Below, in pieces: positions 35,145 to 54,765 of a DNA stretch of 64,000 nt (position 1 is the stretch's first letter; each line of letters starts with the position of its first letter). Position numbers and translations under genes: made by a program. The notes beneath the pieces are model-generated. The model was not told the origin of the DNA. It saw only the letters and a program-made list of their open reading frames with translations, and searched no databases. This DNA is from Thermoflexus hugenholtzii JAD2 (GTDB lineage: Bacteria; Chloroflexota; Anaerolineae; Thermoflexales; Thermoflexaceae), in NCBI RefSeq assembly GCF_900187885.1, contig NZ_FYEK01000044.1, forward strand, positions 1-64,000. Reading direction: 5' to 3'.

Positions 35145-35308
35145 GACTGCCCCCTGGATATGAGCGAAAGCACCCGGGAGACCTGACGGTCGACACCCCT
35201 ACCTGAAGCGCTCCGGATGTATACTTCGCAGAAATAAAGATAACCGGGATGAACCTTCTCGGCCCCGGGCGGGGCCGTTGGCAGCCCAAGCGAAGAGGGA
35301 GGTTTCCC

Positions 35309-38884
<3,576 letters not shown>

Positions 38885-38945: not shown

Positions 38946-39947
<1,002 letters not shown>

Positions 39948-39962
39948 GGCCCTTAACGCTGC

Positions 39963-40787
39963 CTATCCCAGCAGCTCCCGCAGTCGTTCGGCCAGCTGAC
40001 GGGCCACCTCCTCCGGGCTCCCCTCCAGCCGGATGCGCCGGCGCTCCCGGGAGGGGGCCTGGGCCAGCCCGGAGACCTGCGTGGGAGAACCGGCGACCCC
40101 GATGAAGACCTCATCGACCTCCAAATCCGCGGCGCTCCAGACGGTCACCCGCTCCGGCGCGAAGGCCCATGGCTTCCGCCGGTAGTCCATGAAACGAGGC
40201 TCGTTGCATCCCGTCTTGACCGAGATCACCGCCGGGAGAGGGACCTCCAGGATCTCATACCCGCCGGGCCGCTCCCGACGCCCCCGCACCACCCGCCGCC
40301 AGGGATCCAGCTCGATCTGCGTGACCATGGTGATCTGCTGGAAGCCCAGCCACTCCGCCAGCCCGGGCGGCACCTGGCCGGTGGCCCCATCCGATGACTC
40401 CTCCCCGCAGAAGACCAGATCCACCGGTCCCAGCTTCTCGATTCCCCGGGCCAAGGTGTAGGTGGTAGCCAGGGTGTCAGCGCCCCCGAACCGGCGGTCG
40501 CTGAGCAGGTAGATGTGATCGGCCCCCATGGCGAGCCCTACCCGGAGATAGGGCTCGAAGAAGGGCGGGCCCATGGAGACGATGGAAACCCGTCCCCCGA
40601 AGCGGTCCTTGAGCTGCAGGGCCATCTCCAGGGCGTTCATGTCCGGCGGATTGATCTCCGAGCGGGCCCCTGCCCGATCCAGCCGCCGGGTCTCCGGGTC
40701 CACCCGCACCTCCTCCGGCTTGGGCACCACCTTCATACAGACCACGAAATGCCAGTCCCGGCCGTTCGGGCTCACCATCGTCTGCAT
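39963..40787 (-). CDS. etfB: electron transfer flavoprotein subunit beta
   Basis: About 274 residues; an ATG three codons downstream has better spacing to the GGGAGGAGG site and may be the real start. VVCMKVVPKPEEVRVDPETR, INPPDMNALEMALQLKD, VSIVSMGPPFFEPYLRVGLAMGAD and LVFCGEESSDGATGQVPPGLAE are characteristic of EtfB. It forms a heterodimer with EtfA carrying FAD and AMP or a second FAD. It is the last gene of the kor-hdr-etf run and lies 28 bases after etfA. Confidence 0.93.
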   Translation of the reverse strand: MQTMVSPNGRDWHFVVCMKVVPKPEEVRVDPETRRLDRAGARSEINPPDMNALEMALQLKDRFGGRVSIVSMGPPFFEPYLRVGLAMGADHIYLLSDRRFGGADTLATTYTLARGIEKLGPVDLVFCGEESSDGATGQVPPGLAEWLGFQQITMVTQIELDPWRRVVRGRRERPGGYEILEVPLPAVISVKTGCNEPRFMDYRRKPWAFAPERVTVWSAADLEVDEVFIGVAGSPTQVSGLAQAPSRERRRIRLEGSPEEVARQLAERLRELLG

Positions 40788-40815
40788 CCTCCTCCCGATC
40801 TTTCGGGGCGCATCC

Positions 40816-41856
40816 CTATCCTCGGGCCGGGCCGCCCTCCACCGCCATCCGCTCCGCGCGCAGGACCTCGATCAGGGCCGGGATCACCTGCAGGGCATCC
40901 CCGACCACGCCGTAATCGGTGAACTCGAAGATGGGAGCCTCTGGATCGTTGTTGACCGCGATCACAGTCCCGGCGTTCTGGATCCCGACCACGAACTGGA
41001 AGGCGCCGCTGGCACCGCACACGATGGCCACCTTCGGCCGACACACCACGCCGGTCTGGCCGACCTGGCGCTCCCGGCCGATCAGGCCCTCATCCACCGG
41101 CGGGCGGGTGGCCCCCACCTCTCCGCCGAGCAGCTCCGCCAGCTCCCGGAGCAGATCGAACCGTCCGTGGATCCCTCGCCCGCCCACCACCAGGACCGGC
41201 GCCTGGGTGAGATCCACCCCCTGGCCGATCACCCGCTCCACCACCCGGGTGTGGAGATCCTCCGGTCGCAGATCCACATCGAGAGGGATGACCGCACCGG
41301 TCCGCCCGGGCTGGGGAGCAGCGAGGGGGAAGACGCCTGGCCGCACAGTGGCCATCTGGGGGCGGTGATGAGGCATGGTGATGAGGGCCACCACGCCTCC
41401 GCCAAAGCCGGTGACCTCCCCGATCAGCAACCCGCCCCGCTCTGGATCCAGGCGCAGATCGGTGCAGTCGGCGGTGAGGCCGGTCCGCAACCGCACCGCC
41501 AGACGCCCGGCCAGGTCCCGTCCGTTGGGAGTGGCGCCGCACAGGAAGACGCTGGGCCGCCCCTGCATCAGGGCCCGGAACGCCATCGCCGTGTGGGCCT
41601 CGACCGTGAAGGGCTCGAGGAGGGGATGATCCGCCACCCACACCTCATCCGCCCCCCAGGCGAAGGCCTGCTCCACCAGGGGCCTCACCCGATGGCCGAG
41701 GAGCAAGCCAGCCACCCGCCAGCCGATCCCATCCGCCAACTCTCGGGCCTTAGAAAGCAGCTCCAGGGACACCCGTTCCAGGACGGCTTGTTCCTGCTCC
41801 AGATACACCCAGATCGCAGGTTGCGCCTCATCGGGACCGTAGAGGGAAGCCGCCAT
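40816..41856 (-). CDS. etfA: electron transfer flavoprotein subunit alpha
   Basis: 346 residues. The C-terminal FAD domain is clear: GRGIHGRFDLLRELAELLGG, RPPVDEGLIGRERQVGQTG and CGASGAFQFVVGIQNAGTVIA, then NNDPEAPIFEFTDYGVVGDA. EtfA/EtfB pass electrons between dehydrogenases and quinone or, in bifurcating types, split electrons between ferredoxin and another acceptor. Adjacent Hdr genes favour the latter. No N-terminal ferredoxin domain is fused. It lies 33 bases after the HdrCB-like gene. Confidence 0.93.
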   Translation of the reverse strand: MAASLYGPDEAQPAIWVYLEQEQAVLERVSLELLSKARELADGIGWRVAGLLLGHRVRPLVEQAFAWGADEVWVADHPLLEPFTVEAHTAMAFRALMQGRPSVFLCGATPNGRDLAGRLAVRLRTGLTADCTDLRLDPERGGLLIGEVTGFGGGVVALITMPHHRPQMATVRPGVFPLAAPQPGRTGAVIPLDVDLRPEDLHTRVVERVIGQGVDLTQAPVLVVGGRGIHGRFDLLRELAELLGGEVGATRPPVDEGLIGRERQVGQTGVVCRPKVAIVCGASGAFQFVVGIQNAGTVIAVNNDPEAPIFEFTDYGVVGDALQVIPALIEVLRAERMAVEGGPARG

Positions 41857-41889
41857 TGGGTTTGCCCCCTTTCCGCTGGATGCAGCGCA

Positions 41890-43074
41890 TCAGATGCGCA
41901 GGTCCGTTCCGGAGGGGCTGATCGCCATAGCCGCGATCTCGGCCACATCCATCACCCGTATCCCCTGCACGCCGAGGCCCTTCAGGCTGTCCTCCAGGCA
42001 GGCCATGCAGAACGGGCAAGCGGTGGCGATCACCTGAGCCCCGGTCTGCAGGGCCTCCTGAACCCGCAGGTCGGCGAACCGCTCGCCGGCCCGGGTCTCC
42101 AGCCACATCCGCCCTCCGCCGCCGCCACAACACAGGGCCTCCGGACCGGAATGGGCCATCTCCACCCGTTCCAGGCCGGGGATCGCATCCAGGATCCGAC
42201 GAGGGGCATCGTATTCGCCGTTGCGCCGCCCCAGGTAGCAGGGATCGTGATAAGTGACCCGGAGCCGGACCTCCTGAGCAAACCGGAGGCGGCCCTCCTC
42301 CAGCAGGCGGGCCAGATACTGGGTGTAGTGATAGGGGCGGAACTCCGCCTGGAACCGGGGGTAGTGATTCTGGAACACATCGTAGCAATGCGGGGAGGTG
42401 GTGATGAGCTCCCGCACTCCCGCGTCGGCGAAGATCTTCGCGTTGTTCTGGGCGATCTCGTAGAAGTAAGGGCGGTGTCCGAGGCTCTTAACGGCCTCCC
42501 CGCAGCAGGGTTCATCGTTGCCCAGGGTGCCGAAACGCACGCCGGCGGCCCGAAGGAGCTGCACCAGGGCGCGGGCGACCTTCTGGGCCCGCCGGTCATA
42601 AGCGGAGGTGCAACCCACGTAGTAGAGGAGCTCATGCTGGGCCGGATCGAAGCGGGGCACCTCCAGGTCGCGGGCCCATCGGACGCGGTAGGAGGGAGGC
42701 TGGAACCAGGGATTGTTGTTCCAGTAGACCGACCAGAGCACCGCGGAGAGGCCCCGGGGGATGCGACGGGTTTCCCAAGCCTGCTCCCGCAAGCTCTGGA
42801 AGATCTCGGAGACCGGCACCCCGCGGGGGCACAGGGTCTCGCACTGAGCGCACGCGGCGCACAACCACAGGTGCTCATCCCCGTCCAGCAGACCGACCTG
42901 GGCCCGGCGCATCATGGCCCGCACGGAGAAGGGCTCATGCCGAACCAGGCCCCAGGGGCACGCGGCGGTGCAGACCCCACACTGATAGCAGAGGGCCATT
43001 GTCCCCTGCGTCTCCCGGAACAGGCGCTCCCACAGCGCCTCGTCGGGGGTCAGGACGGGCATCTCGAGCATCAC
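41890..43074 (-). CDS. HdrC-HdrB fusion-type iron-sulfur protein (heterodisulfide reductase-like)
   Basis: 394 residues. The N-terminal ferredoxin (HdrC) part has CYQCGVCTAACP and CAACAQCETLCP for two [4Fe-4S] clusters. The C-terminal HdrB part has two CCG domains: CTSAYDRRAQ with NDEPCCGEA, and DPCYLGRRNGEYDAP with EALCCGGGGGRMW, which in HdrB hold non-cubane clusters that reduce disulfides. There is no membrane span, unlike HdrD/DUF224 quinone-linked proteins, so the complex should be soluble. Its start overlaps the hdrA stop by four bases. Confidence 0.9.
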   Translation of the reverse strand: MMLEMPVLTPDEALWERLFRETQGTMALCYQCGVCTAACPWGLVRHEPFSVRAMMRRAQVGLLDGDEHLWLCAACAQCETLCPRGVPVSEIFQSLREQAWETRRIPRGLSAVLWSVYWNNNPWFQPPSYRVRWARDLEVPRFDPAQHELLYYVGCTSAYDRRAQKVARALVQLLRAAGVRFGTLGNDEPCCGEAVKSLGHRPYFYEIAQNNAKIFADAGVRELITTSPHCYDVFQNHYPRFQAEFRPYHYTQYLARLLEEGRLRFAQEVRLRVTYHDPCYLGRRNGEYDAPRRILDAIPGLERVEMAHSGPEALCCGGGGGRMWLETRAGERFADLRVQEALQTGAQVIATACPFCMACLEDSLKGLGVQGIRVMDVAEIAAMAISPSGTDLRI

Positions 43075-46000
43075 TCGCCTCCTGCCGTCTCAGCGGGCTG
43101 GGCCGCACGCTCGGGGGCCGGGACGGCTTCCCCGCGCAGCTTGCGGACGTAGCGGCGGACGACCTCGTCCATCTCCCGGAGCTTCTCCGCGAACTCCTTG
43201 CCCTCCGCCGCCGAGATCCAGCGCAGCTGCAGCCGCTCGGGCTCGATCCCCATGCGGGCGAACTTCCGCTGCCAATACTGGAAGCGCTTCCAGGTCTGCC
43301 GGTTGGCGTAGTTGTAGTGGCAATCCGAGCCGGTCTCTGTCAGCCGACAGCCGGTGATCAGCACCGCCCCGGCTCCTTTCTCGAAGGCGCGGGCGATGAA
43401 ATCTTCCTCAAAGCGTCCTGAGCACATCGTCCGGATGATCCGTGAGGAAGGCGGATACTGGCGTTTCTCGATGCCGGCCAGATCGGCCCCGGCGTAGGAG
43501 CACCAGTTGCAGGTGAACACCAGGCACTTCTCCTCCGGCCGCTCGGCCAGGGCCGCGTCGATCTGGGCCAGGATCTGCTCCTTGGTGAAGAAGGGCATGA
43601 GGATGGCATCCGTTGGGCACTCCGCGGCGCACGTCCCGCAGCCCATGCAGGCTGCCTCGATGATGCGCACCTTCCCCACCTTCACGGGACCGGTGGGCTC
43701 GATGGCGTTGAAGGGACAGACCTTCACACACCGCATGCACCCGATGCACTTCTCCGGGTCCACCCGGGCGGTGAGGGGCTCCTTCTCGATGACCCCGCGG
43801 GCGAGGAGGGCGCCGGCCTTGGCCGCTGCTGCCAGGCCCTGAGCGATGGCCTCCCGCACATCCTTCGGCCCCTGCGCGGTCCCCGCCAGGTAGATGCCCT
43901 GGGTGGCTGTCTCCGCTGGGCCCAGCTTGGGATGGAGTTCCATCAAGAAGCCATCCTCGCTGCGGGAGAGCCGGAGCTGCTCAGCCAGGCCGTCAGCGGC
44001 CGGGCGCAGGCCCACTGCCAGGACCAGCAGATCCGTGGGCAGGCGAAGATACGCCTGCGAGAGATGGTCGTAGAAGATCACATGGCCATCCTCGAAGGTG
44101 ATGGCCTCCTGGGGCGGCCGATCGGGATCGTAGCGGAAGAACTGAACGCCCTCCCGCATGGCCTGCTCGTAGAGCTCCTCGGCGTTGCGGCTGTAGGTGC
44201 GGATCTCCCGATAAAGGATCCGCACCTTCTTGCCCATCCGCCGCAGGCGCAGGGCCTGGCCGATCATCGAGGTGCAGCAGTAGCGGGAGCAGCCCATGTT
44301 GCCCTGGCGCGAGCCCACACAGCCCACGAAGGTGATGCGCTCGGCTTCGACGGCGCCGCGCCGGAGCATCGCCTCCAGCTCCAGGTTGGTGATGACCCGC
44401 GGGTCGCTTCCGTAGCCGAACTCCGTGGGCCGATAGGGCTCCGCCCCTGTGGCCATCACGATGGCGCCCACCTGGAGGGTGGTGCCGTCGCTCAGGCGGG
44501 CCTGGAAATTGCCCACCACCCCGCCGATGGTCTCGATCTGCTTCCCCAGATGCACTTGGACGCCGCTCTGGAGGAGCTCCCGCTTCTTCGCCTCGACAAG
44601 GTCGCGGGCCTTCAGGCCGGAGGGCGAGAGCTCGTCCAGCTGATTCAGGAGGCCGCCTAGCTCAGCGCTCCGCTCCACCAGGTGGGTCTCAAAGCCCTGG
44701 CGGGCCAGGGCGATGGCCGCCGTCATCCCGGCGATCCCGCCGCCGATCACCAGCGCCCGCTGGGTGAGGGGCAGCTGGGAGGGCTCCCCAGGGGTCAGAC
44801 GCCGGGCCTTCTCCACCGCCATCCAGACCATGTCCATCGCCTTGACGGTGGCCGCCTCCTTATCCGCCTTATGCACCCAGGAGTCCAGGTTGCGGATGTT
44901 GGCCATCTCCAGGAGATACGGGTTCAGGCCCGCGCGCTGGAGCACCCCGCGGAAGATCGCCTCGTGGGTGCGGGGGGAGCAGGCGGCCACCACCACCCGG
45001 TTGATCCGCTCCCGGCGGATGGCCTCCTCGATCTCCTTCTGGGTGTTCCCCGCGCAGGAGAACATCTGATGGGTGGCGTAGACCACATCGGGAAGGGTCC
45101 GGGCGAACTCCACCACCCGCTCCACATCGACCACCCCGGCGATGTTGCTGCCGCAATGGCAGACGAAGACTCCCACCCGAGGGGTTTCGATGTCCGTAAT
45201 CGGTTCCACCTGCGGGGGCTCCGGCCAGTGGCGGCGGGTGAGGTGGCTCAGGGCGAGGGCGGCGGCCCCGCTCCCCTCCGAGACGCTGTCCGGGATGTCC
45301 TTGGGCCCGGTGGCGCAACCCGCCGCGTAGATCCCCGGCCGCGTGGTTCGCACCAGACCGCCCACCCCCTCCAGGGCCCGGATGAAGCCGTCCTCATCCA
45401 GCTCGATCCCCAGGCGCTGGGCCAGATCCGCCAGGCCGTCGGGCGGGGAGACCGCCGTGGCCAGCACGACCATATCGTAATCCTCTGAGATGCGCATCCC
45501 CCGTTCCGTGTCCTCGTAGATCACCTGGATCCGGCCGTCCCCGTTGGGCGCGATCCGGGCCGGGCGCCCTCGGACGAAGCGGGCACCGGCCTCGCGGGTC
45601 CGCTCCCAGAAGCCATCGAAACCCTTCCCGTAAGCCCGGATGTCCATGTAGAGGACGGTCACGTCCCGGATGCCATGGTCGATGGCCTGGTAGGCGTGTT
45701 TGATGGAATACATGCAGCAGATGCGGGAGCAATGCCGGAAGAACCGGCGGTCCCGGGATCCGACGCACAGGACAAACAGGATGTTGTGGGGATGTTCGCC
45801 GTTGGAGGGGCGCAGGATCTCGCCTCCCGTCGGGCCGGCGGAGGTGAGCAGACGTTCGAACTCCAGGGCCGTCAGGATGTCGGGATGGGTGCCATATCCG
45901 AACTCCCGCAGCAGCCGCGGGTCGATCGTCTCATAGCCCACGGCCACGATGATGGACCCCACGCGGCGCACCAAGCGGCGCTCCCGGGGCATCAGGAAAT

Positions 46001-46520
46001 CGATGGCCCCTGGCTGACAGGCCTGCACGCACCGGTGGCACGGAAGGTAATGGGGGGGATCGTTCAGGCAGTTCTCGATGTCGATCACATAAGCACCGGG
46101 CACCGACTGTGGGATAGGGGTGTAGATGGCCTTGCGGGCCGCCATCCCGACATCGAACTCGTTGGGGAGGACCACCGGGCAGACGTTCACGCACTCGCCG
46201 CAGCGGGTGCACTGATCCGTCACAAAGCGAGCCCGCTGGCGGATGGTTACCTCGAAATCTCCCGCATGGCCCTCCACCCGCTCCACCTCGGCCAGGGTGA
46301 GCAGCTCGATGTTCGGGTGGAGACCGACCTCAGACATCTTGGGCGCCTCGATGCAGATGGAGCAGTCCAGGGTGGGGAAGTTCTTGTCCAGGATGGCCAT
46401 CTTCCCCCCGATGGTGGGCTCCCGCTCCACCAGCACCACGCGCGCGCCGGCGTTGGCCAGATCCAGCGCCGCCTGGATCCCTGCGATCCCCCCGCCGATG
46501 ACCAGGACCGAATCGCTCAT
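43071..46520 (-). CDS. hdrA: triple fusion HdrA-HdrA-MvhD
   Basis: 1149 residues. Module 1 (~1-430) has VIGGGIAGIQAALDLANAG, LDCSICIEAPKMSEV, CTRCGECVNVCP and CHRCVQACQP. Module 2 (~445-985) starts like canonical HdrA (VGVFVCHCGSNIAGVVDVER, VVAACSPRTHEAIF, EMANIRNLDSWVHKADKEAA), has a second FAD site VIGGGIAGMTAAIALARQGF, CVGSRQGNMGCSRYC and two ferredoxin clusters (KCIGCMRCVKVCP, CMGCGTCAAECP). Module 3 (~990-1110) is MvhD/FrhD-like: KCLVFTCNWCSYAGADL and TMCSGRFEEDFIARAF. HdrA flavin is the electron-bifurcation centre, and MvhD normally feeds electrons into it. The start overlaps the korC stop by four bases. Confidence 0.93.
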   Translation of the reverse strand: MSDSVLVIGGGIAGIQAALDLANAGARVVLVEREPTIGGKMAILDKNFPTLDCSICIEAPKMSEVGLHPNIELLTLAEVERVEGHAGDFEVTIRQRARFVTDQCTRCGECVNVCPVVLPNEFDVGMAARKAIYTPIPQSVPGAYVIDIENCLNDPPHYLPCHRCVQACQPGAIDFLMPRERRLVRRVGSIIVAVGYETIDPRLLREFGYGTHPDILTALEFERLLTSAGPTGGEILRPSNGEHPHNILFVLCVGSRDRRFFRHCSRICCMYSIKHAYQAIDHGIRDVTVLYMDIRAYGKGFDGFWERTREAGARFVRGRPARIAPNGDGRIQVIYEDTERGMRISEDYDMVVLATAVSPPDGLADLAQRLGIELDEDGFIRALEGVGGLVRTTRPGIYAAGCATGPKDIPDSVSEGSGAAALALSHLTRRHWPEPPQVEPITDIETPRVGVFVCHCGSNIAGVVDVERVVEFARTLPDVVYATHQMFSCAGNTQKEIEEAIRRERINRVVVAACSPRTHEAIFRGVLQRAGLNPYLLEMANIRNLDSWVHKADKEAATVKAMDMVWMAVEKARRLTPGEPSQLPLTQRALVIGGGIAGMTAAIALARQGFETHLVERSAELGGLLNQLDELSPSGLKARDLVEAKKRELLQSGVQVHLGKQIETIGGVVGNFQARLSDGTTLQVGAIVMATGAEPYRPTEFGYGSDPRVITNLELEAMLRRGAVEAERITFVGCVGSRQGNMGCSRYCCTSMIGQALRLRRMGKKVRILYREIRTYSRNAEELYEQAMREGVQFFRYDPDRPPQEAITFEDGHVIFYDHLSQAYLRLPTDLLVLAVGLRPAADGLAEQLRLSRSEDGFLMELHPKLGPAETATQGIYLAGTAQGPKDVREAIAQGLAAAAKAGALLARGVIEKEPLTARVDPEKCIGCMRCVKVCPFNAIEPTGPVKVGKVRIIEAACMGCGTCAAECPTDAILMPFFTKEQILAQIDAALAERPEEKCLVFTCNWCSYAGADLAGIEKRQYPPSSRIIRTMCSGRFEEDFIARAFEKGAGAVLITGCRLTETGSDCHYNYANRQTWKRFQYWQRKFARMGIEPERLQLRWISAAEGKEFAEKLREMDEVVRRYVRKLRGEAVPAPERAAQPAETAGGE

Positions 46521-47098
46521 CGCGGCCGCTCCTCCGGGGATTCCAGGGGAACTGCGCCACGGAAGGACGGGAAGCGCGTCCGGGCGTATTCATAGCCGGC
46601 GGCGAAGGCTTTCCGGTTCAGGGGGACCAGCCGGGGGGCCAGGGTGGTCTCGATGGCCTTCTCCACCGATTCCGGCCGCACCTGTCCCCAGACCCCGGCG
46701 AGGAACCCCAGGACGACCATGTTGGCGACGATGCGCCGCCCCAGCTCCTCCGCCAGCCGGGTCGCCGGAATCCCGAGCGGACGATCCTCCGGCCAGGGCT
46801 GGACGAGATCCTCCTCTATGATGACAAGGGCGTCCGGCTTGGCCGTAGGGCGGAACCGGGTGTAGGCCTCCTGGGAGAGCAGGATCAGGACGTCCGGCTC
46901 CAGCACGAAGGGGTAATCGATGGGCTCATCGGAGACCACCACGTTAGAGCTGGAGGACCCCCCTCGGGCCTCCGGACCGTAGGATTGGGTCATCACCGCC
47001 TCCAGGCCTTCGTAGACGGCGAAGGCCTTGCCCAGGATGTAGCCGGCCAACACCACCCCCTGCCCGCCGAAGCCCGCGATCCGGATCTCCACGCGCAT
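46517..47098 (-). CDS. korC: 2-oxoacid:ferredoxin oxidoreductase subunit gamma
   Basis: 193 residues. IRIAGFGGQGVVLAGYILGKA is the gamma-subunit signature, followed by TQSYGPEARGGSSSSNVVVSD and VDRLVPL-type binding loops (TLAPRLVPLNRKAFAAGYEYA). Gamma docks with alpha, beta and delta in the 2-oxoglutarate-type complex. It lies 12 bases after korB and overlaps hdrA by four bases, so it is firmly cotranscribed with the Hdr gene. Confidence 0.92.
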   Translation of the reverse strand: MRVEIRIAGFGGQGVVLAGYILGKAFAVYEGLEAVMTQSYGPEARGGSSSSNVVVSDEPIDYPFVLEPDVLILLSQEAYTRFRPTAKPDALVIIEEDLVQPWPEDRPLGIPATRLAEELGRRIVANMVVLGFLAGVWGQVRPESVEKAIETTLAPRLVPLNRKAFAAGYEYARTRFPSFRGAVPLESPEERPR

Positions 47099-47110
47099 CG
47101 CATCCTCCCT

Positions 47111-47941
47111 TCATCGGCGCACCGGCCGGAAGACCTCCCGCTCCCGATCCACGAACCGACCCACGTAAATGGGGCGCTCCTCCCGCAGGTCCACCTCCAG
47201 GGCCTCCCAGGGCACCTCCTCCGGCACCCGGTAGACCAGGACGCTGCGGCGGCGATACAGCTGCATCTCCTCCACGCCGTCCTCGATGTCGTTGGGCCGC
47301 CCGAAGCCCACCGGGCACGGCGCCAGGACCTCGATGAAGGTAAAACCGGGCTTGCGGAAGGAATACAGGATGTCCTGCTTGATCTGGCGGACGTGGAGGG
47401 CTGTCCATCGCGAGACGAAGACCGCTCCCGAGGCCGCCAAAAGATAGGGGAGATTGAAGGGGTGTTCCGGGTTGCCGTAGGGTGTGGTGGTGGTCTTCGC
47501 CCCCAGGGGCGTGGTGGGCCCGACCTGACCGCCTGTCATGCCGTAATTGAAGTTGTTAATACAGATCACCTTGATATCCACATTGCGTCGGGCGGCGTGG
47601 ATCAGGTGGTTCCCGCCGATGGCCGCCAGGTCCCCATCCCCGCTGAACACCGTGACCATCAGCTCGGGCTTCATCAGCTTGAGGCCGATGGCGAAGGGGA
47701 TGGGACGCCCATGGGTGACGTGATACGAATCCAGGTTCATGTAGCCGGGCACCCGCGCCGTGCAGCCGATGCCCGAGACCACCACATGGCGCTCCACCGG
47801 GATGCCGGACTCCAGGATCGCCTGGGCGTAACAGCGCATCACGATGCCGATGCCGCACCCCGGGCACCAGATATGGGGCATGCGGTCCCGGCGGATGAGA
47901 TCATCCAGGGGATGCTTTTCCGCCACCCGTGCGTGCGCCAT
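47111..47941 (-). CDS. korB: 2-oxoacid:ferredoxin oxidoreductase subunit beta (TPP)
   Basis: 276 residues. IWCPGCGIGIVMRCYAQAI, SGIGCTARVPGY and the TPP/Mg motif GDGDLAAIGGNHLIHAARRN, ending in NNFNYGMTGGQVGPTTPLG, match the 2-oxoglutarate (KorB) rather than the pyruvate (PorB) branch. The start at 47941 is behind GGGAGG and overlaps the korA end by 41 bases. Substrate inferred from family (2-oxoglutarate or a branched 2-oxoacid). Confidence 0.93.
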   Translation of the reverse strand: MAHARVAEKHPLDDLIRRDRMPHIWCPGCGIGIVMRCYAQAILESGIPVERHVVVSGIGCTARVPGYMNLDSYHVTHGRPIPFAIGLKLMKPELMVTVFSGDGDLAAIGGNHLIHAARRNVDIKVICINNFNYGMTGGQVGPTTPLGAKTTTTPYGNPEHPFNLPYLLAASGAVFVSRWTALHVRQIKQDILYSFRKPGFTFIEVLAPCPVGFGRPNDIEDGVEEMQLYRRRSVLVYRVPEEVPWEALEVDLREERPIYVGRFVDREREVFRPVRR

Positions 47942-49091
47942 GGAAGGCCGCCTCCCGAATGGCCTGCAGGATCGGATCCGGCGGGATCATCGCCCCGCCG
48001 GCGTGGAAAACCCCCTTCACGGGCTGGGAGACGTAGCGTTCGACCTCGCAGATCATCTGGCCCAGGTTCATCTCCGCCACGATGAAGACCTCCGCCTGCT
48101 TCGCCAGCTCCCGCACCACCTCGGCCGGGAAAGGCCAGAGGGAGATCAGCCGCAACAGCCCGGCGGGGATCCCCATGCGGCGGGCGTCCGCCACCGCCCG
48201 CCGGGCCGAACGGGCGGTGCACCCGTAAGAGATGACCACGATCTTCGCGTCCTCCAACGCATACGTGTCGTAGCGGATCATCTGATGGGCGTTCCGCCGC
48301 ACCTTCTCCACCAGTCGGGTCACCAGGCGGTGATGCGTCTCGGCGGACATGTCCGGGTAGCCCCGCTCGTCGTGGGTCAGCCCGGTGAAGTGCACCCGAT
48401 ATCCCTCCCCGGCGTGCACCATAGGAGGGACCAGGTCCTCATCCTCCACCAGGAAAGGTTTGAACCCGTTGCCGGCGGGATAGCGGGGCCGCTTCCGCTC
48501 CCAGCGGGGGATCTGGTCTTCGGGCGGGATCACCACGCGCTCGACCATGTGACCGACCACCTCATCGGCCATCACCATCACCGGGATCCGGAAGCGATCG
48601 GCCACGTTGAAGGCCAGCACCGTGAGATCGAACATCTCCTGAGGGGACCATGGGGCATAGGCCGCGATCTCGTAATCCCCGTGGGAGCCCCAGCGGGCCT
48701 GCATCACATCCGCCTGGCCGGGGAGCGTGGGCAGCCCGGTGGAGGGGGAGCCGCGCTGCACATCCACGATCACACAGGGGATCTCCAGCATGGCCGCCAG
48801 GCCCACGCTCTCCATCATCAGGCTGAAGCCCGGGCCGGAGGTGGCGGTCATCGCCCGGGCGCCGGCCGCCGAGGCGCCGAGCACCGCCATGATGCTGGCG
48901 ATCTCGTCCTCCATCTGGATGAAGACCCCGCCCACCTCCGGAAGGCGCTGGGCCATGCGCTCGGCGATCTCCGTGGAGGGGGTGATGGGATACCCGGCGA
49001 AGAAGCGGCACCCCGCGGCGATCGCCCCCTCGGCACAGGCATGGTCGCCATGCATGAAGTGGACGCCCGTCAACACACCCCGGCCCGTCAT
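47901..49091 (-). CDS. korA: 2-oxoacid:ferredoxin oxidoreductase subunit alpha
   Basis: 396 residues. HFMHGDHACAEGAIAAGCRFF and AGYPITPSTEIAERMA open the protein, with EDEIASIMAVLGASAAGARAMTATSGPGFSL and EIPCVIVDVQRGSPSTGLPT typical of KorA. The ARSARRAVADARRMG and RLISLWPFPAE stretches belong to the domain that closes over TPP. Its start overlaps the korD stop (ATGA). Confidence 0.93.
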   Translation of the reverse strand: MTGRGVLTGVHFMHGDHACAEGAIAAGCRFFAGYPITPSTEIAERMAQRLPEVGGVFIQMEDEIASIMAVLGASAAGARAMTATSGPGFSLMMESVGLAAMLEIPCVIVDVQRGSPSTGLPTLPGQADVMQARWGSHGDYEIAAYAPWSPQEMFDLTVLAFNVADRFRIPVMVMADEVVGHMVERVVIPPEDQIPRWERKRPRYPAGNGFKPFLVEDEDLVPPMVHAGEGYRVHFTGLTHDERGYPDMSAETHHRLVTRLVEKVRRNAHQMIRYDTYALEDAKIVVISYGCTARSARRAVADARRMGIPAGLLRLISLWPFPAEVVRELAKQAEVFIVAEMNLGQMICEVERYVSQPVKGVFHAGGAMIPPDPILQAIREAAFHGARTGGGKASPG

Positions 49092-49360
49092 GCCGAGTCC
49101 ACCTCAAGGGTGAAGATGGCGAACTCCGGGCAGACCATCATGCAGAACTCGCAATGGACGCAGGCGTTCTCTTTGCCGGGCGCGATCTCCGGGTAATGGT
49201 AACCGCGCGAGTTCATCCGGCTGGACATGCGGAGCACCTGCTGGGGACAGAACTCCACACACATCTGACAGCCCTTGCAGCGCTCCGGGATGAGGAAAAC
49301 CTGCCCCCGTGGGATCCGAACCTGGGTCAGGTTCAGCGGCTGCCGAGCGTAGACCCGCAT
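49088..49360 (-). CDS. korD: ferredoxin-type delta subunit of the kor complex
   Basis: 90 residues from ATG at 49360; upstream in-frame codons lack a ribosome site. Two [4Fe-4S] motifs are present: CKGCQMCVEFCP and CVHCEFCMMVCP, with a trailing FAIFTLEV. It is the first gene of the kor-hdr-etf unit and would receive electrons from the TPP centre and pass them on, perhaps directly to the HdrA fusion. Confidence 0.9.
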   Translation of the reverse strand: MRVYARQPLNLTQVRIPRGQVFLIPERCKGCQMCVEFCPQQVLRMSSRMNSRGYHYPEIAPGKENACVHCEFCMMVCPEFAIFTLEVDSA

Positions 49361-49535
49361 GATGGCCCCCCCATATCGGCGGCTGGGGCGGCTCCGGGCA
49401 CAGCGCGGCACGATGACAGCGGGGAGAGACCAGCGATGCAACCGCCCGCAGTCTCACAGGGTCGACAATGCTGGTTCAACTCTCACCTTAAGAAAATGAT
49501 CACCCCTGTTGTAGTAATTTTGATCACCTGATCCC

Positions 49536-49737: not shown

Positions 49738-50652
49738 ATGGGGGAGATGATCGAAATCCGATGGCATGGGCGCGGGGGCCAGGGGGTGGTGACCGCCGCC
49801 CGCCTCCTGGCGGAGGCGGCCATGGAGGCCGGGTATTTCATCCAGGCCTTTCCGGATTACGGGCCGGAACGCAGCGGGGCGCCCATCCGGGCCTTCACCC
49901 GCCTCAGCCGCTCCCCGATCTCCCTGCACTCGCAGGTGCAGGCGCCGGATCTCGTGATCGTGCTGGATGAAACCCTCCTGGGGGATCCGGCCATCCTGGA
50001 AGGGCTGAAGCCCGAGGGCTGGCTGGTGGTCAACTCCGGACTGCCTCCAGACCGGGTCCGGGCCCGGGCGCGGGGCTATCCGGGCCGCCTGGCCCTCCTG
50101 GATGCCACGCGGATCGCCCTGGAGGTCCTGCAGCGGAACCTCCCCAACACGCCGTTGCTGGGCGCCCTGGCCCGGGTGACCGGGCTCTTTTCCCTGGAAG
50201 ATCTCACCCGCCACCTCCACCATCACCTCGCCCCCAAATTCGGGGAGGCCATCGTCCAGGCCAACCTGGAAGCGGTCCGCCGGGGCTTTGAGGAGGTGCG
50301 CATCGATCCCGGCCGGATCCCGGCGGGCGAATGGGCGCTGGAAGCCTCCACGGCGGGGATGGCCCTCCCCTGGTTTGAGCTGCCCCGGGGGGGCCTGATC
50401 CTGGACGCCGGGAACGCGGTGGCGTATGCCACGGGAGGCTGGCGGACCTTCCGGCCGGTGGTGGAGATGGAGAAATGCACGCACTGCCTCTATTGTTGGC
50501 TCTACTGCCCGGATGACGCGGTTCGGGTGGCCGGCGGGCGGTTCGTGGGCTTCGATGAGCTCCACTGCAAAGGATGCGGGATCTGCGCGGCCGTCTGTCC
50601 GCCCAAGGCCATCACCATGGTCGAGGAAGCCCGCCTGATGGCCGGAGCGTAA
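49738..50652 (+). CDS. porG: pyruvate:ferredoxin oxidoreductase gamma-delta fusion
   Basis: 304 residues. The gamma part (~1-180) has IRWHGRGGQGVVTAARLLAEA and PDYGPERSGAPIRAFTRLS. The C-terminal delta part (~225-304) has TFRPVVEMEKCTHCLYCWLY with CTHCLYCWLYCP and CKGCGICAAVCP for two [4Fe-4S] clusters. The fusion order is common in bacterial Por. It precedes porA by 11 bases, so the four-function enzyme is encoded by three genes here. Confidence 0.93.
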   Translation: MGEMIEIRWHGRGGQGVVTAARLLAEAAMEAGYFIQAFPDYGPERSGAPIRAFTRLSRSPISLHSQVQAPDLVIVLDETLLGDPAILEGLKPEGWLVVNSGLPPDRVRARARGYPGRLALLDATRIALEVLQRNLPNTPLLGALARVTGLFSLEDLTRHLHHHLAPKFGEAIVQANLEAVRRGFEEVRIDPGRIPAGEWALEASTAGMALPWFELPRGGLILDAGNAVAYATGGWRTFRPVVEMEKCTHCLYCWLYCPDDAVRVAGGRFVGFDELHCKGCGICAAVCPPKAITMVEEARLMAGA

Positions 50653-50663
50653 GGAGGTGCGGG

Positions 50664-51917
50664 ATGGGCCGATGGATGGCGCTGGAAGGCACCGAGGCGG
50701 TGGCTTACGCGATGAAGCAGATCGCCCCGGACGTGGTGGCCGCTTACCCCATCACCCCTCAGACCGGGATCGTGCAGACCTTCGCCCAGTTCGTGGCGGA
50801 CGGGGAGGTCCCCACAGAGTTCATCCAGGCGGAGAGCGAGCACAGCGCCCTGAGCGCCTGCGTGGGCGCGGCGGCCGCAGGGGCCCGCGCCATGACCGCC
50901 ACCTCCTCCCAGGGCCTGGCCCTGATGTGGGAGATCCTCCCCATCGCCGCCGCGATGCGGCTGCCCATCGTGATGCCCGTCGTCAACCGGGCCCTCTCCG
51001 CGCCCATCAACATCCATTGTGACCACTCCGACTCCATGGGCGCCCGGGACACGGGCTGGATCCAGATCTATTCGGAGAACGCTCAGGAGGCCTACGATAA
51101 CACCCTGCAGGCCGTGCGCATCGCGGAGCACCCCCAGGTCCGCTTGCCTGTGATGGTGATGCAGGACGGCTTCATCACCAGCCACGCGGTGGAGCGCGTG
51201 TGGGTGGAGGACGACGATGTGGTGCGGGCCTTCCTGGGGACCTATCAGCCGGCCTGCACCCTCCTGAACTTCGAGCGGCCGCTCACCTTCGGGGCCCTGG
51301 ATTTCTACGACTATTACTTCGAACACAAACGCCACCAGGTGGAGGCCATGCGCCGGGCGAAAGACGCGATCCTGGAGGTGGCCGAGGATTTCGCCCGACG
51401 CTTCGGACGCCGCTACGGGCTCTTCGAGACCTACCAGCTGGAGGACGCCGAGGCCGCGGTGGTGGTCCTCTCCTCCACCGCCGGGACCGCCCGCGTGGCG
51501 GTGGACAACCTGCGGCGGATGGGCTGGCGGGTCGGCCTGCTCAAGCTGCGGGTCTATCGTCCCTTCCCGGATCATGAGATCATCGCCGCCCTGCGGCACC
51601 TGCGGGCCATCGGCGTGATGGACCGGGCCATCGCTTTTGGGGCACTGGAGAACGGAGGCCCCCTCTGGCTGGATCTGCTGGCAGCCGCCCACCGCCACGG
51701 CCTGCACATCCCCATTGCGGACTACGTGTTCGGCCTAGGCGGGCGGGACATCACCCCCTCGGAGATCGAGGGGATCTTCACCGACCTGATGCAGATCGCC
51801 GATCGCGGCGCGGTCACCCGCCCGGTCACCTACGTGGGGGTCCGCGGCGAGCTGCCGCTGCCCAGCCCCGCTGAGTGGTCCCTGTGGATCCCCGAGGCCA
51901 CGATGGCTGGCGACTGA
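50664..51917 (+). CDS. porA: pyruvate:ferredoxin oxidoreductase subunit alpha
   Basis: 417 residues from ATG at 50664 with an AAGGAGGT site. LEGTEAVAYAMKQIAPDVVAAYPITPQTGIVQTF, ESEHSALSACVGAAAAGARA and TATSSQGLALMWEILPIAA are PorA signatures, as is the PINIHCDHSDSMGARDTGW loop involved in pyruvate specificity. With PorGD and PorB it oxidises pyruvate to acetyl-CoA or, with strong ferredoxin reduction, runs in reverse. It lies 10 bases before porB. Confidence 0.93.
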   Translation: MGRWMALEGTEAVAYAMKQIAPDVVAAYPITPQTGIVQTFAQFVADGEVPTEFIQAESEHSALSACVGAAAAGARAMTATSSQGLALMWEILPIAAAMRLPIVMPVVNRALSAPINIHCDHSDSMGARDTGWIQIYSENAQEAYDNTLQAVRIAEHPQVRLPVMVMQDGFITSHAVERVWVEDDDVVRAFLGTYQPACTLLNFERPLTFGALDFYDYYFEHKRHQVEAMRRAKDAILEVAEDFARRFGRRYGLFETYQLEDAEAAVVVLSSTAGTARVAVDNLRRMGWRVGLLKLRVYRPFPDHEIIAALRHLRAIGVMDRAIAFGALENGGPLWLDLLAAAHRHGLHIPIADYVFGLGGRDITPSEIEGIFTDLMQIADRGAVTRPVTYVGVRGELPLPSPAEWSLWIPEATMAGD

Positions 51918-51927
51918 GGAGGTCCCC

Positions 51928-52872
51928 ATGGTGGCTACTCCGCTGAACTTGAAGATCCTGTCGGAAAAGCGCACGCCCCTCTCCGGTGGGCACCGCATGT
52001 GCGCCGGATGCGCGGAGGCCATCATTGTGAAGCAGGTCCTGCTGGCCATCGACGACCCGGTGGTGGTGATCAACGGCACCGGCTGTCTGGAGGTCTCCAC
52101 CACCATCTTCCCCTACACGGCGTGGCGCGTGCCCTGGATCCACGTGGCCTTCGAGAACACTGCCGCCGTGGCCGCAGGGGTGGAAGCCGCTTACCGCGCC
52201 CTCGTCCGCCGGGGGGCCCTCCCGGCCGACCGCCGGGTGGTCTTCGTGGCCTTCGCCGGGGATGGGGGGAGCTACGACATCGGCCTTCAGGCCCTCTCCG
52301 GGGCGCTGGAACGCGGGCACCGCTTCCTCTACGTGTGTCTGGACAACGAAGGCTACATGAACACCGGCATCCAGCGCTCCGGCGCCACTCCCCGGGGGGC
52401 CTGGACCACCACCACGCCGGTGGGGAAGGTCATGCCGGGCAAACCCCAGTGGCGCAAGGATCTGACCGCCATCGTCGCCGCCCACCGGATCCCTTATGTG
52501 GCCCAGGTCGCCCCCTCCCACTGGAAGGATCTAATGACCCGGGTGCGCAAGGCCGTGGCCAGCGGAGGCCCTGCCTTCCTGAACGCCCTTTCCGACTGCA
52601 ACCGGGGCTGGCGGCACGATCCGGCCCAGACCATCGAGGTCACCCGCCTGGCCGTCGAGACATGCTACTGGCCCCTCTTTGAGGTCGAGGATGGGGTGTG
52701 GCGGCTGAACTACCGGCCGCGCCGCAAGCTCCCCATCACCGAATACCTCCGGCTCCAGGGCCGGTTCGCTCACCTGCTCCGGCCGGAGTTCCAGGACCTG
52801 GTGGCGGAGATCCAGGCGGAGGTGGATCGACGCTGGGAGGAGCTGCTGCGTCGCTGCGGTGAGACGGCCTGA
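51928..52872 (+). CDS. porB: pyruvate:ferredoxin oxidoreductase subunit beta (TPP)
   Basis: 314 residues. HRMCAGCAEAIIVKQVLLAI, NGTGCLEVSTTIFPYTAW and the TPP motif GDGGSYDIGLQALSGALERG, followed by CLDNEGYMNTGIQRSGATPRG, are typical of PorB and different from the KorB in the opposite operon. A C-terminal RPRRKLPITEYLRLQGRF tail is also usual. Confidence 0.94.
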   Translation: MVATPLNLKILSEKRTPLSGGHRMCAGCAEAIIVKQVLLAIDDPVVVINGTGCLEVSTTIFPYTAWRVPWIHVAFENTAAVAAGVEAAYRALVRRGALPADRRVVFVAFAGDGGSYDIGLQALSGALERGHRFLYVCLDNEGYMNTGIQRSGATPRGAWTTTTPVGKVMPGKPQWRKDLTAIVAAHRIPYVAQVAPSHWKDLMTRVRKAVASGGPAFLNALSDCNRGWRHDPAQTIEVTRLAVETCYWPLFEVEDGVWRLNYRPRRKLPITEYLRLQGRFAHLLRPEFQDLVAEIQAEVDRRWEELLRRCGETA

Positions 52873-53655: not shown

Positions 53656-54765
53656 ATGCACATCGGGATCCCGAAAGAGCGCCGACCGGAGGAATACCGG
53701 GTGAGCCTCACCCCGGCAGGGGTGGAGATGCTGACCCAGGCCGGACATACGGTGTGGGTGGAGAGCGGGGCAGGCCTGGGAGCCGGCTTCACGGATGAGG
53801 ACTACCGCCGCGCGGGCGCCCAGATCGTCTACTCCGGGCCCGAGGTCTATGGACGGGCGGATCTGGTCGTGAAGGTGGCCCGGCCCACCCAGGAGGAGTT
53901 CGAGTGGCTTCGGGAGGGCCAGGCCCTGATGGGCTTCCTCCATCTCGCCGCCGCCCGACGAGACAAGATCGAGATCCTGCTCCAGCGGCGGATCACCGCC
54001 ATCGCCTACGAGACAGTGCAGGCCGACGACGGCACCCTCCCCATCCTGGCTCCGATCAGCGCCATCGCCGGGCGGATGGCCGCCCATGTCGCCGCCACCC
54101 TGCTTCAGAACGACCGGGGGGGCAAAGGGATCCTCCTGGGCGGTGCCCCGGGCGTCCCGCCCGCCGAGGTGGTGATCCTAGGGGCCGGCGTCGTGGGCTC
54201 CAACGCCGCCCGGGCCTTCGCCGGCATGGGAGCCAGCGTCTATGTGCTGGACAAAGACATCCGTCGGCTCCAGCGCCTCGAGGAGCTGTGCGGAAGCCAG
54301 GTCGTCACTATGGTCTCGCATCCCTACAACCTGCGTAAGGTCGTCCGCTTCGCCGATGTGCTGATCGGCGCCGTGCTGGTGCCCGGCGCCCGCACGCCCA
54401 TCCTGGTCACCCGGGAGATGGTCCGCTCTATGAAGCCTCGATCCCTGATCATGGACATCTCCATCGATCAGGGCGGGTGCGTCGAGACCAGCCGCCCCAC
54501 CACCCACCGCGACCCCACTTTCGTCGAGGAGGGGGTGATCCACTATGCGGTGCCCAACATGACCGGCGTGCTGGGGCGGACCGCCACACACGCGCTGACG
54601 AACGCTCTGTGGCCGTTCCTGGAGGAGATCGCCCGGGTGGGCCTGGAGGAGGCCCTGGATCGGGATCCAGCCCTGGCCCGTGGGGTGAACACCCGTGAGG
54701 GTCAGGTGACCCACCCGGAGCTGGCCCGTGTTCTGGAGATGGAGGCCTCGATCCGCCAGGGTTGA
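53656..54765 (+). CDS. ald: alanine dehydrogenase
   Basis: 369 residues. IGIPKERRPEEYRVSLTPAGVE, the nucleotide motif VVILGAGVVGSNAARAFAGMG, VLVPGARTPILVTREMVRSM and DISIDQGGCVETSRPTTH are family hallmarks, with the catalytic His in MGFLHLAA and Asp in DISIDQGG. It reversibly converts alanine to pyruvate, ammonia and NADH, feeding or draining the pyruvate pool used by the adjacent Por operon. A 231-base gap precedes it, so it may have its own promoter. Confidence 0.95.
   Translation: MHIGIPKERRPEEYRVSLTPAGVEMLTQAGHTVWVESGAGLGAGFTDEDYRRAGAQIVYSGPEVYGRADLVVKVARPTQEEFEWLREGQALMGFLHLAAARRDKIEILLQRRITAIAYETVQADDGTLPILAPISAIAGRMAAHVAATLLQNDRGGKGILLGGAPGVPPAEVVILGAGVVGSNAARAFAGMGASVYVLDKDIRRLQRLEELCGSQVVTMVSHPYNLRKVVRFADVLIGAVLVPGARTPILVTREMVRSMKPRSLIMDISIDQGGCVETSRPTTHRDPTFVEEGVIHYAVPNMTGVLGRTATHALTNALWPFLEEIARVGLEEALDRDPALARGVNTREGQVTHPELARVLEMEASIRQG

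Follow-up and report, generated by a model that had tools for sequence, protein, structure and literature searches.

The 64,000-nucleotide window analysed here (contig NZ_FYEK01000044.1, positions 1 to 64,000), from the 3.2 Mb host genome of Thermoflexus hugenholtzii JAD2, carries on its minus strand, from position 49360 to 39963, eight genes in the order korD-korA-korB-korC-hdrA-hdrCB-etfA-etfB (hereafter the octet; Table 1), which join a 2-oxoacid oxidoreductase, a HdrA-MvhD fusion, an EtfD-like iron-sulfur protein and an EtfAB pair. All eight genes are present with overlapping or near-touching ends, as the first-pass annotation of this DNA had described: neighbours overlap by 4-41 bp or are separated by at most 33 bp, and the spacings in the near-identical relative L079 (-4, -41, +12, -4, -4, +33 and +28 bp) have the same values as the window coordinates. 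The start of korD is the ATG at 49360, and the listed open reading frame (ORF) reaches further, to a TTG at 49441. All eight subunit assignments were confirmed with Pfam and NCBIfam, so that the Kor, HdrA-fusion and EtfAB identities given earlier hold, whereas the protein named HdrCB proved closer to mycobacterial EtfD than to HdrB. None of the eight proteins has a hydrophobic span, HdrCB included (19-residue Kyte-Doolittle windows, maximum 1.84 in KorA), which agrees with the soluble unit proposed before.

Table 1. The eight genes of the octet in the analysed window.
Gene	Product	Position	Strand	Basis and remarks
korD	2x[4Fe-4S] ferredoxin-like delta subunit, 2-oxoacid oxidoreductase	49088..49360	-	Pfam, NCBIfam; 8 cluster cysteines in 14/14 orthologues
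korA	alpha subunit, Oor/Kor type	47901..49091	-	NF006412 558 bits, above cut-off; nearest solved 1yd7, then 8ys5
korB	thiamine pyrophosphate-binding beta subunit; Kor cluster cysteines C26, C29, C60, C209	47111..47941	-	PF02775; NF007207 best; 8ys5 chain C best
korC	gamma subunit	46517..47098	-	PF01558
hdrA	1149 aa two-flavin HdrA fused to MvhD	43071..46520	-	Pfam, NCBIfam, phmmer against solved structures, AlphaFold2 model
hdrCB	soluble EtfD-like protein; HdrC-type 2x[4Fe-4S] and two CCG domains	41890..43074	-	GTG start; Pfam; EtfD best match
etfA	alpha subunit; V148 replaces beta-FAD N5 arginine	40816..41856	-	Pfam, nearest solved structures
etfB	beta subunit; RxFxG 98-102, SPT 234-236; beta-FAD motif DGATGQVPP; GEESSD	39963..40787	-	Pfam, nearest solved structures

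The octet is conserved as a unit well beyond the genus. In a search of 60 relatives the same HdrA was found in six of the eight other Thermoflexus-genus genomes, in two of them as contig-end fragments. Among 400 genomes of the phylum, seven from other families possess HdrCB at 51-61% identity, preceded by HdrA and followed by EtfA and EtfB in all; Kor is visible in the four with long enough contigs, where seven or eight genes stand in order. The HdrCB alignment, run against 84,980 species genomes, yielded 80 loci. Over all these sources 27 loci hold complete octets, with identical order and strand throughout, and 21 remain (34-87% identity) once the genus and duplicates are set aside. They belong to Chloroflexota (including Anaerolineae and Dehalococcoidia), to Rokubacteria (L103), the bin HRbin16 (L084; 70-87% identical) and three archaeal contigs (L122, L145 and L153; 34-60%). 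Separation of the Etf and Hdr parts in relatives had been named as a sign against the unit; the parts lie together in all 21. Binning errors in single metagenome-assembled genomes may be the source of some occurrences, but the archaeal copies have diverged and form separate branches in the HdrCB tree. A Coatesbacteria contig (L129) runs from KorD to HdrCB and then ends, and inserts of 0.6-1.5 kb interrupt the octet in some Anaerolineae with the order still kept. On long enough contigs, octet-type HdrCB always has HdrA before and EtfAB after it, and Kor lies upstream of HdrA save in L094, with a different gene at the expected KorC place, and L095, where masked sequence or a gap precedes HdrA. 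In the tree of 77 HdrCB sequences a single branch (SH-aLRT 97) splits 42 octet members from 35 non-octet ones, and pairwise identities of the octet subunits correlate (r 0.83-0.94). Clustering of the ORFs of 39 sequences revealed no ninth conserved partner: only the eight octet families are widely shared, the other widely recurrent, unlabelled clusters being taken as shadow ORFs on other frames of the octet. Acyl-CoA dehydrogenase-like ORFs flank just four loci, and their positions vary. On three Thermoplasmata contigs (L125, L152 and L157) two HdrCB and a further HdrA come after Kor-HdrA-MvhD, with no EtfAB found, an arrangement that is possibly an Etf-less relative of the octet.

The Kor subunits have the subunit set and cluster cysteines of an Oor-type 2-oxoglutarate:ferredoxin oxidoreductase. 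The eight cluster cysteines of KorD are kept in all 14 orthologues and the four of KorB in 31/31, and the nearest solved relatives of both KorA and KorB are 1yd7 and 8ys5, the alpha chain of the latter being annotated as 2-oxoglutarate synthase. Judged from family resemblance, 2-oxoglutarate would be the most likely substrate.

HdrA comprises a first flavin domain (FAD1) with an inserted ferredoxin (residues 1-430), an N-domain (443-580), a second flavin domain (FAD2, approximately 586-910), a 2x[4Fe-4S] domain (918-976) and MvhD (996-1122). Comparison with solved structures by phmmer matched the flavin domain at 2-372, the N-domain at 443-598, the end and C-terminal ferredoxin of HdrA at 842-993 and MvhD at 996-1122; Pfam likewise placed an MvhD (FlpD) domain at the C-terminus, the 25 families listed for either half of the protein included no Qmo model, and the AlphaFold2 model (pLDDT 83, pTM 0.84) best matched HdrA of 8rvu and 5odc. 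The residues E356 and K409 separate bifurcating from non-bifurcating HdrA flavins (PMC12054007, PMC9430772). According to the 5odc alignment with HdrA of M. thermolithotrophicus, they correspond to E222 and K274 in FAD1, both present in 38/38 orthologues, whereas the lysine position of FAD2 (754) is occupied by G, A, H, S, N, E or Q and never by lysine. The Fe-S cluster and MvhD cysteines form a complete set, near-invariant in 38 orthologues. FAD1 is the only candidate bifurcation flavin of the octet. In Dehalococcoidia loci L111 and L112 hdrA breaks after codon 55 at an in-frame stop at C56, opposite which the solved HdrA 9sfi has an X; the stop probably encodes selenocysteine.

The best match of HdrCB in both sequence and fold is mycobacterial EtfD (9ojn, TMq 0.72), well above HdrB. 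In EtfD a linear cluster is assigned to D1 and a noncubane one to D2, where a histidine renders the cluster non-catalytic; the homologues FadF and DgcB are reported to lack cysteines of D1 (PMC13083937), and the D1 set looks dispensable in HdrCB too. The noncubane site of HdrCB (C279, C315, C316, C353 and C356 together with H229) is conserved in 46 sequences with one gap, while in domain 1 position 227 is S or D in all and further ligands are gone in 10/46. HdrCB has the EtfD fold with the D2 ligands and histidine, as do non-Etf homologues, and without the membrane domain by which EtfD acts as a membrane Etf:menaquinone oxidoreductase. The two complete noncubane sites of HdrB (Cx..CCGx..CxxC twice) are not present. 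Because the D2 ligands and H229 are conserved and domain 1 is reduced, HdrCB would be an electron wire rather than a disulfide reductase. Disulfide reduction, one of the outcomes first suggested for this module, is accordingly unlikely: the second noncubane cysteine set of HdrB is lacking, and a disulfide reductase role was rejected on the incomplete first CCG domain.

The nearest solved relatives of EtfA and EtfB are bifurcating Etfs (CarDE, EtfABCX and LctBC), from which, by sequence, the octet EtfAB descends. In Ldh-EtfAB the EtfB motifs DGDTAQVGP, RxFxG and SPT serve the beta-FAD, NAD and the anchor, respectively, and R205 of EtfA lies at N5 of the beta-FAD; its replacement by alanine abolishes bifurcation while NADH:2,6-dichlorophenolindophenol activity stays, and RxFxG and SPT are needed for NAD(H) reactivity or coupling. 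At the R205 site of LctC the octet EtfA has V148, and its orthologues 41 V, 2 T, 1 N and 1 I, so that arginine is absent in 45/45. By comparison, all five solved bifurcating references have this arginine, and most Etf paralogues of the same genomes have Arg or Lys there. EtfB retains most of the NAD motif: R in 36/41, F and G each in 40/41, and in SPT S and T in 41/41 and P in 34/41. Its beta-FAD motif reads DGATGQVPP, with the first D, T, Q and V kept and the second D replaced by A, G or S, and a family signature GEESSD stands where the references have G[KR]Q and then A or T. Since the EtfA arginine is absent and the beta-FAD motif altered, EtfAB is unlikely to bifurcate in the known way; hydride exchange with NAD(H) may persist. 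The idea of two bifurcation centres, HdrA and Etf, in one unit was consequently rejected, the arginine being missing from every member and the E/K pair occurring only at the first FAD site of HdrA.

Among genomes that carry the octet, the haem-copper oxidase subunit COX1 was detected in 9/9 tested, as compared to 5/20 genomes with non-octet HdrCB; by genus the figures are 8/8 and 5/11 (Fisher p 0.018), in a comparison not matched for class. The E1 component of 2-oxoglutarate dehydrogenase (OGDH) was above the cut-off in one of nine carriers and partial in another. Acyl-CoA dehydrogenases occur in 8/9, a further EtfA is encoded elsewhere in 7/9, several beside an HdrCB/EtfD homologue, and the ETF-QO ferredoxin domain (PF05187) was found in only 1/9. 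One carrier, G307, has a single EtfA and no PF00441 acyl-CoA dehydrogenase. This distribution suggests that the octet EtfAB is a dedicated subunit. It also weakens the link to acyl-CoA through Etf that had been envisaged: the separate EtfAB in most carriers (7/9) and the lack of PF00441 in G307 tell against a dedicated acyl-CoA end.

From the observed gene set, order, conservation and motifs we infer a physical complex, its cofactor content, an electron path with its direction, an NAD(H) end partner and a substrate, as follows. The eight proteins would form one soluble complex in which KorABC and its ferredoxin subunit KorD catalyse the oxidative decarboxylation of a 2-oxoacid, with 2-oxoglutarate as the likeliest substrate. 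The low-potential electrons would go from KorD not to free ferredoxin but to the ferredoxin domains in the HdrA-MvhD hub; from HdrA they would run over the HdrC-like clusters and the single noncubane cluster of the EtfD-like protein to EtfAB, which would exchange them with NAD(H). EtfAB would thus serve in electron transfer and probably react with NAD(H), and would not be a canonical bifurcator. Any three-way coupling would sit at HdrA FAD1, because this is the only flavin with the bifurcation signature. Overall, the complex would give oxidase-bearing organisms an NAD-linked replacement for 2-oxoglutarate dehydrogenase. This route from Kor to NAD(H) is put forward tentatively, at somewhat less than an even chance. 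It is favoured by the exact octet across bacteria and archaea, the subunit-specific motifs, the fold match to EtfD, the likeness of KorA and KorB to Oor-type 2-oxoglutarate enzymes, the acetogen precedent for HdrA with multiple flavin domains, and COX1 in all nine tested carriers with OGDH E1 above its cut-off in just one. Several observations weigh against it. The EtfD-type CCG signature is also present in HdrA-linked homologues without a nearby Etf, and its use as proof of Etf docking was withdrawn; the co-varying identities of the subunits partly reflect shared descent; NAD(H) reactivity is uncertain, with the arginine of the EtfB NAD motif lost in 5/41 and the beta-FAD aspartate changed to alanine in most; and other KorA-type proteins exist in carrier genomes, so the octet is not necessarily their only route from 2-oxoglutarate. 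Finally, if electrons simply passed from Kor to NAD+, the full conservation of the FAD1 residues would have no explanation; this point speaks for a reaction with three partners.

The invariance of the FAD1 residues makes confurcation at HdrA a close rival. Acyl-CoA dehydrogenases or other dehydrogenases would reduce EtfAB, and its higher-potential electrons, delivered via the EtfD-like wire, would combine at FAD1 with low-potential electrons from Kor to reduce NAD(P)+ at the FAD2/MvhD arm. This would make the octet an undescribed soluble confurcating complex of bacteria and archaea, with a two-flavin HdrA, built-in Kor and dedicated EtfAB, forming NAD(P)H in oxygen-respiring cells. E222/K274 mark bifurcating HdrA, the higher-potential branch in known Hdr complexes is the HdrC arm, which here leads to the EtfD-like protein and EtfAB, acetogen HdrAs react with NADH, and acyl-CoA dehydrogenases are common in carriers. 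However, the additional EtfA of most carriers, in several beside an HdrCB/EtfD homologue, is the likelier partner of acyl-CoA oxidation, G307 encodes one EtfA but lacks PF00441 proteins, and the NAD(P)H site in HdrA is putative. Both parts of this proposal, the reaction and the complex as described, are viewed as rather unlikely. A route by which Kor electrons pass along the wire to EtfAB and from there to a separate Etf:quinone oxidoreductase and the quinone pool, bypassing NAD, is distinctly improbable: the EtfD-like part does resemble an Etf-quinone path and some carriers have further HdrCB/EtfD homologues, but PF05187 occurs in just one of the nine carriers and EtfB keeps most of the NAD motif. 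Little probability is given to the reductive direction, in which NADH would be bifurcated at HdrA, low-potential electrons driving reductive carboxylation of acyl-CoA by Kor and high-potential ones leaving via EtfAB. The FAD1 signature would fit, and in the closest proposal in print korABCD is joined to flxABCD-hdrABC within a reverse tricarboxylic acid (TCA) gene cluster (PMC6315080); yet no further family, hence no autotrophy gene, recurs near the octet, and T. hugenholtzii is described as a proteolytic heterotroph with a respiratory chain (PMC8129789). Mere co-transcription of Kor, Hdr-like and Etf enzymes that share free ferredoxin is just as doubtful: complex formation is a prediction from the genes and inserts separate some of the genes in Anaerolineae, but the exact order is kept from bacteria to archaea at 34-60% identity, no ninth partner accompanies it, and one HdrCB branch is tied to the octet.

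If the route from Kor through HdrA and the EtfD-like wire to EtfAB is correct, a 2-oxoacid oxidoreductase and EtfAB would join the modules that dock on HdrA, and an HdrA-based hub would have been kept in oxidase-bearing bacteria. It would also explain how electrons are recovered from Kor in cells without 2-oxoglutarate dehydrogenase. Moreover, with both flavin types inherited, the loss of the EtfA arginine beside the conserved HdrA residues offers a clean test of which flavin bifurcates.

The surroundings of the octet are rich in related enzymes, with three 2-oxoacid oxidoreductase systems within 18 kb. Convergent to it lie genes for a NifJ-type pyruvate:acceptor oxidoreductase (35249-38884) and a dihydroorotate dehydrogenase-like protein (38946-39947), and beyond korD a divergent second 2-oxoacid oxidoreductase cluster (49738-52872) comprises a gamma-type ORF with ferredoxin motifs, alpha and beta. 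On the archaeal contig RBG_16_50_20 the octet likewise adjoins a second Kor cluster, which is encoded on the other strand (L122:14109-16427). An alanine dehydrogenase-like gene is near the octet in three distant lineages (window 53656-54765; L106:5500-6630; L118:15669-16766).

The view that no characterised complex has this gene set stands, since a full-text literature search, outside which Garcia Costas 2017 and Appel 2021 lay, turned up neither such a complex nor a paper describing the set. The nearest published idea is the Kor-Flx-Hdr electron route proposed for tubeworm symbionts (PMC6315080). There and in Thioflavicoccus, korABCD-tfrAB occurs with flxABCD-hdrABC, and the proposed Kor-Hdr route and interspersed genes resemble the octet; contrarily, that system has FlxABCD and HdrABC, lies in a reverse TCA cluster and is described without mention of Etf in the text. 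OorDABC-type 2-oxoglutarate oxidoreductase (8ys5) shares four subunits including a delta ferredoxin subunit with the octet Kor, and stands alone, whereas the octet Kor is tied by gene order to HdrA and EtfAB. As in the bifurcating EtfAB of CarDE, Bcd-Etf, LctBC and EtfABCX, the octet EtfAB shows RxFxG, SPT and RPQMxTVRP and has its nearest solved relatives there for both subunits; it differs from them in the absent N5 arginine of EtfA, the altered DGDTAQVGP and the GEESSD of EtfB. Mycobacterial EtfD (9ojn, PMC13083937) and HdrCB are alike in fold, HdrC-like clusters and D2 noncubane ligands with the histidine, but HdrCB has no membrane domain or haem, the D1 ligand C581 of EtfD is Ser or Asp, and some members have lost the remaining D1 ligands. 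Acetogens provide a precedent for HdrA proteins that contain multiple flavin domains and show NADH:viologen activity. Type II HdrA of methane-metabolizing archaea (PMC12054007) and Sporomusa HdrA (PMC9430772) have, like the octet HdrA, two thioredoxin-reductase-like FAD domains per chain, and the Sporomusa protein also keeps both E and K in just one of them; the octet HdrA differs by its C-terminal MvhD fusion and its Kor and Etf partners, which the text of neither paper mentions. With the methanogen complexes HdrABC-MvhAGD and HdrA2B2C2 the octet shares the E356/K409 FAD signature, the cluster cysteines, HdrC-type clusters and the MvhD domain. Unlike these, it combines two FAD domains in one MvhD-fused chain and has no hydrogenase; its HdrA has a built-in Kor as low-potential partner, and at the high-potential end the EtfD-like protein and EtfAB stand in the place taken by HdrB in the methanogen complexes.

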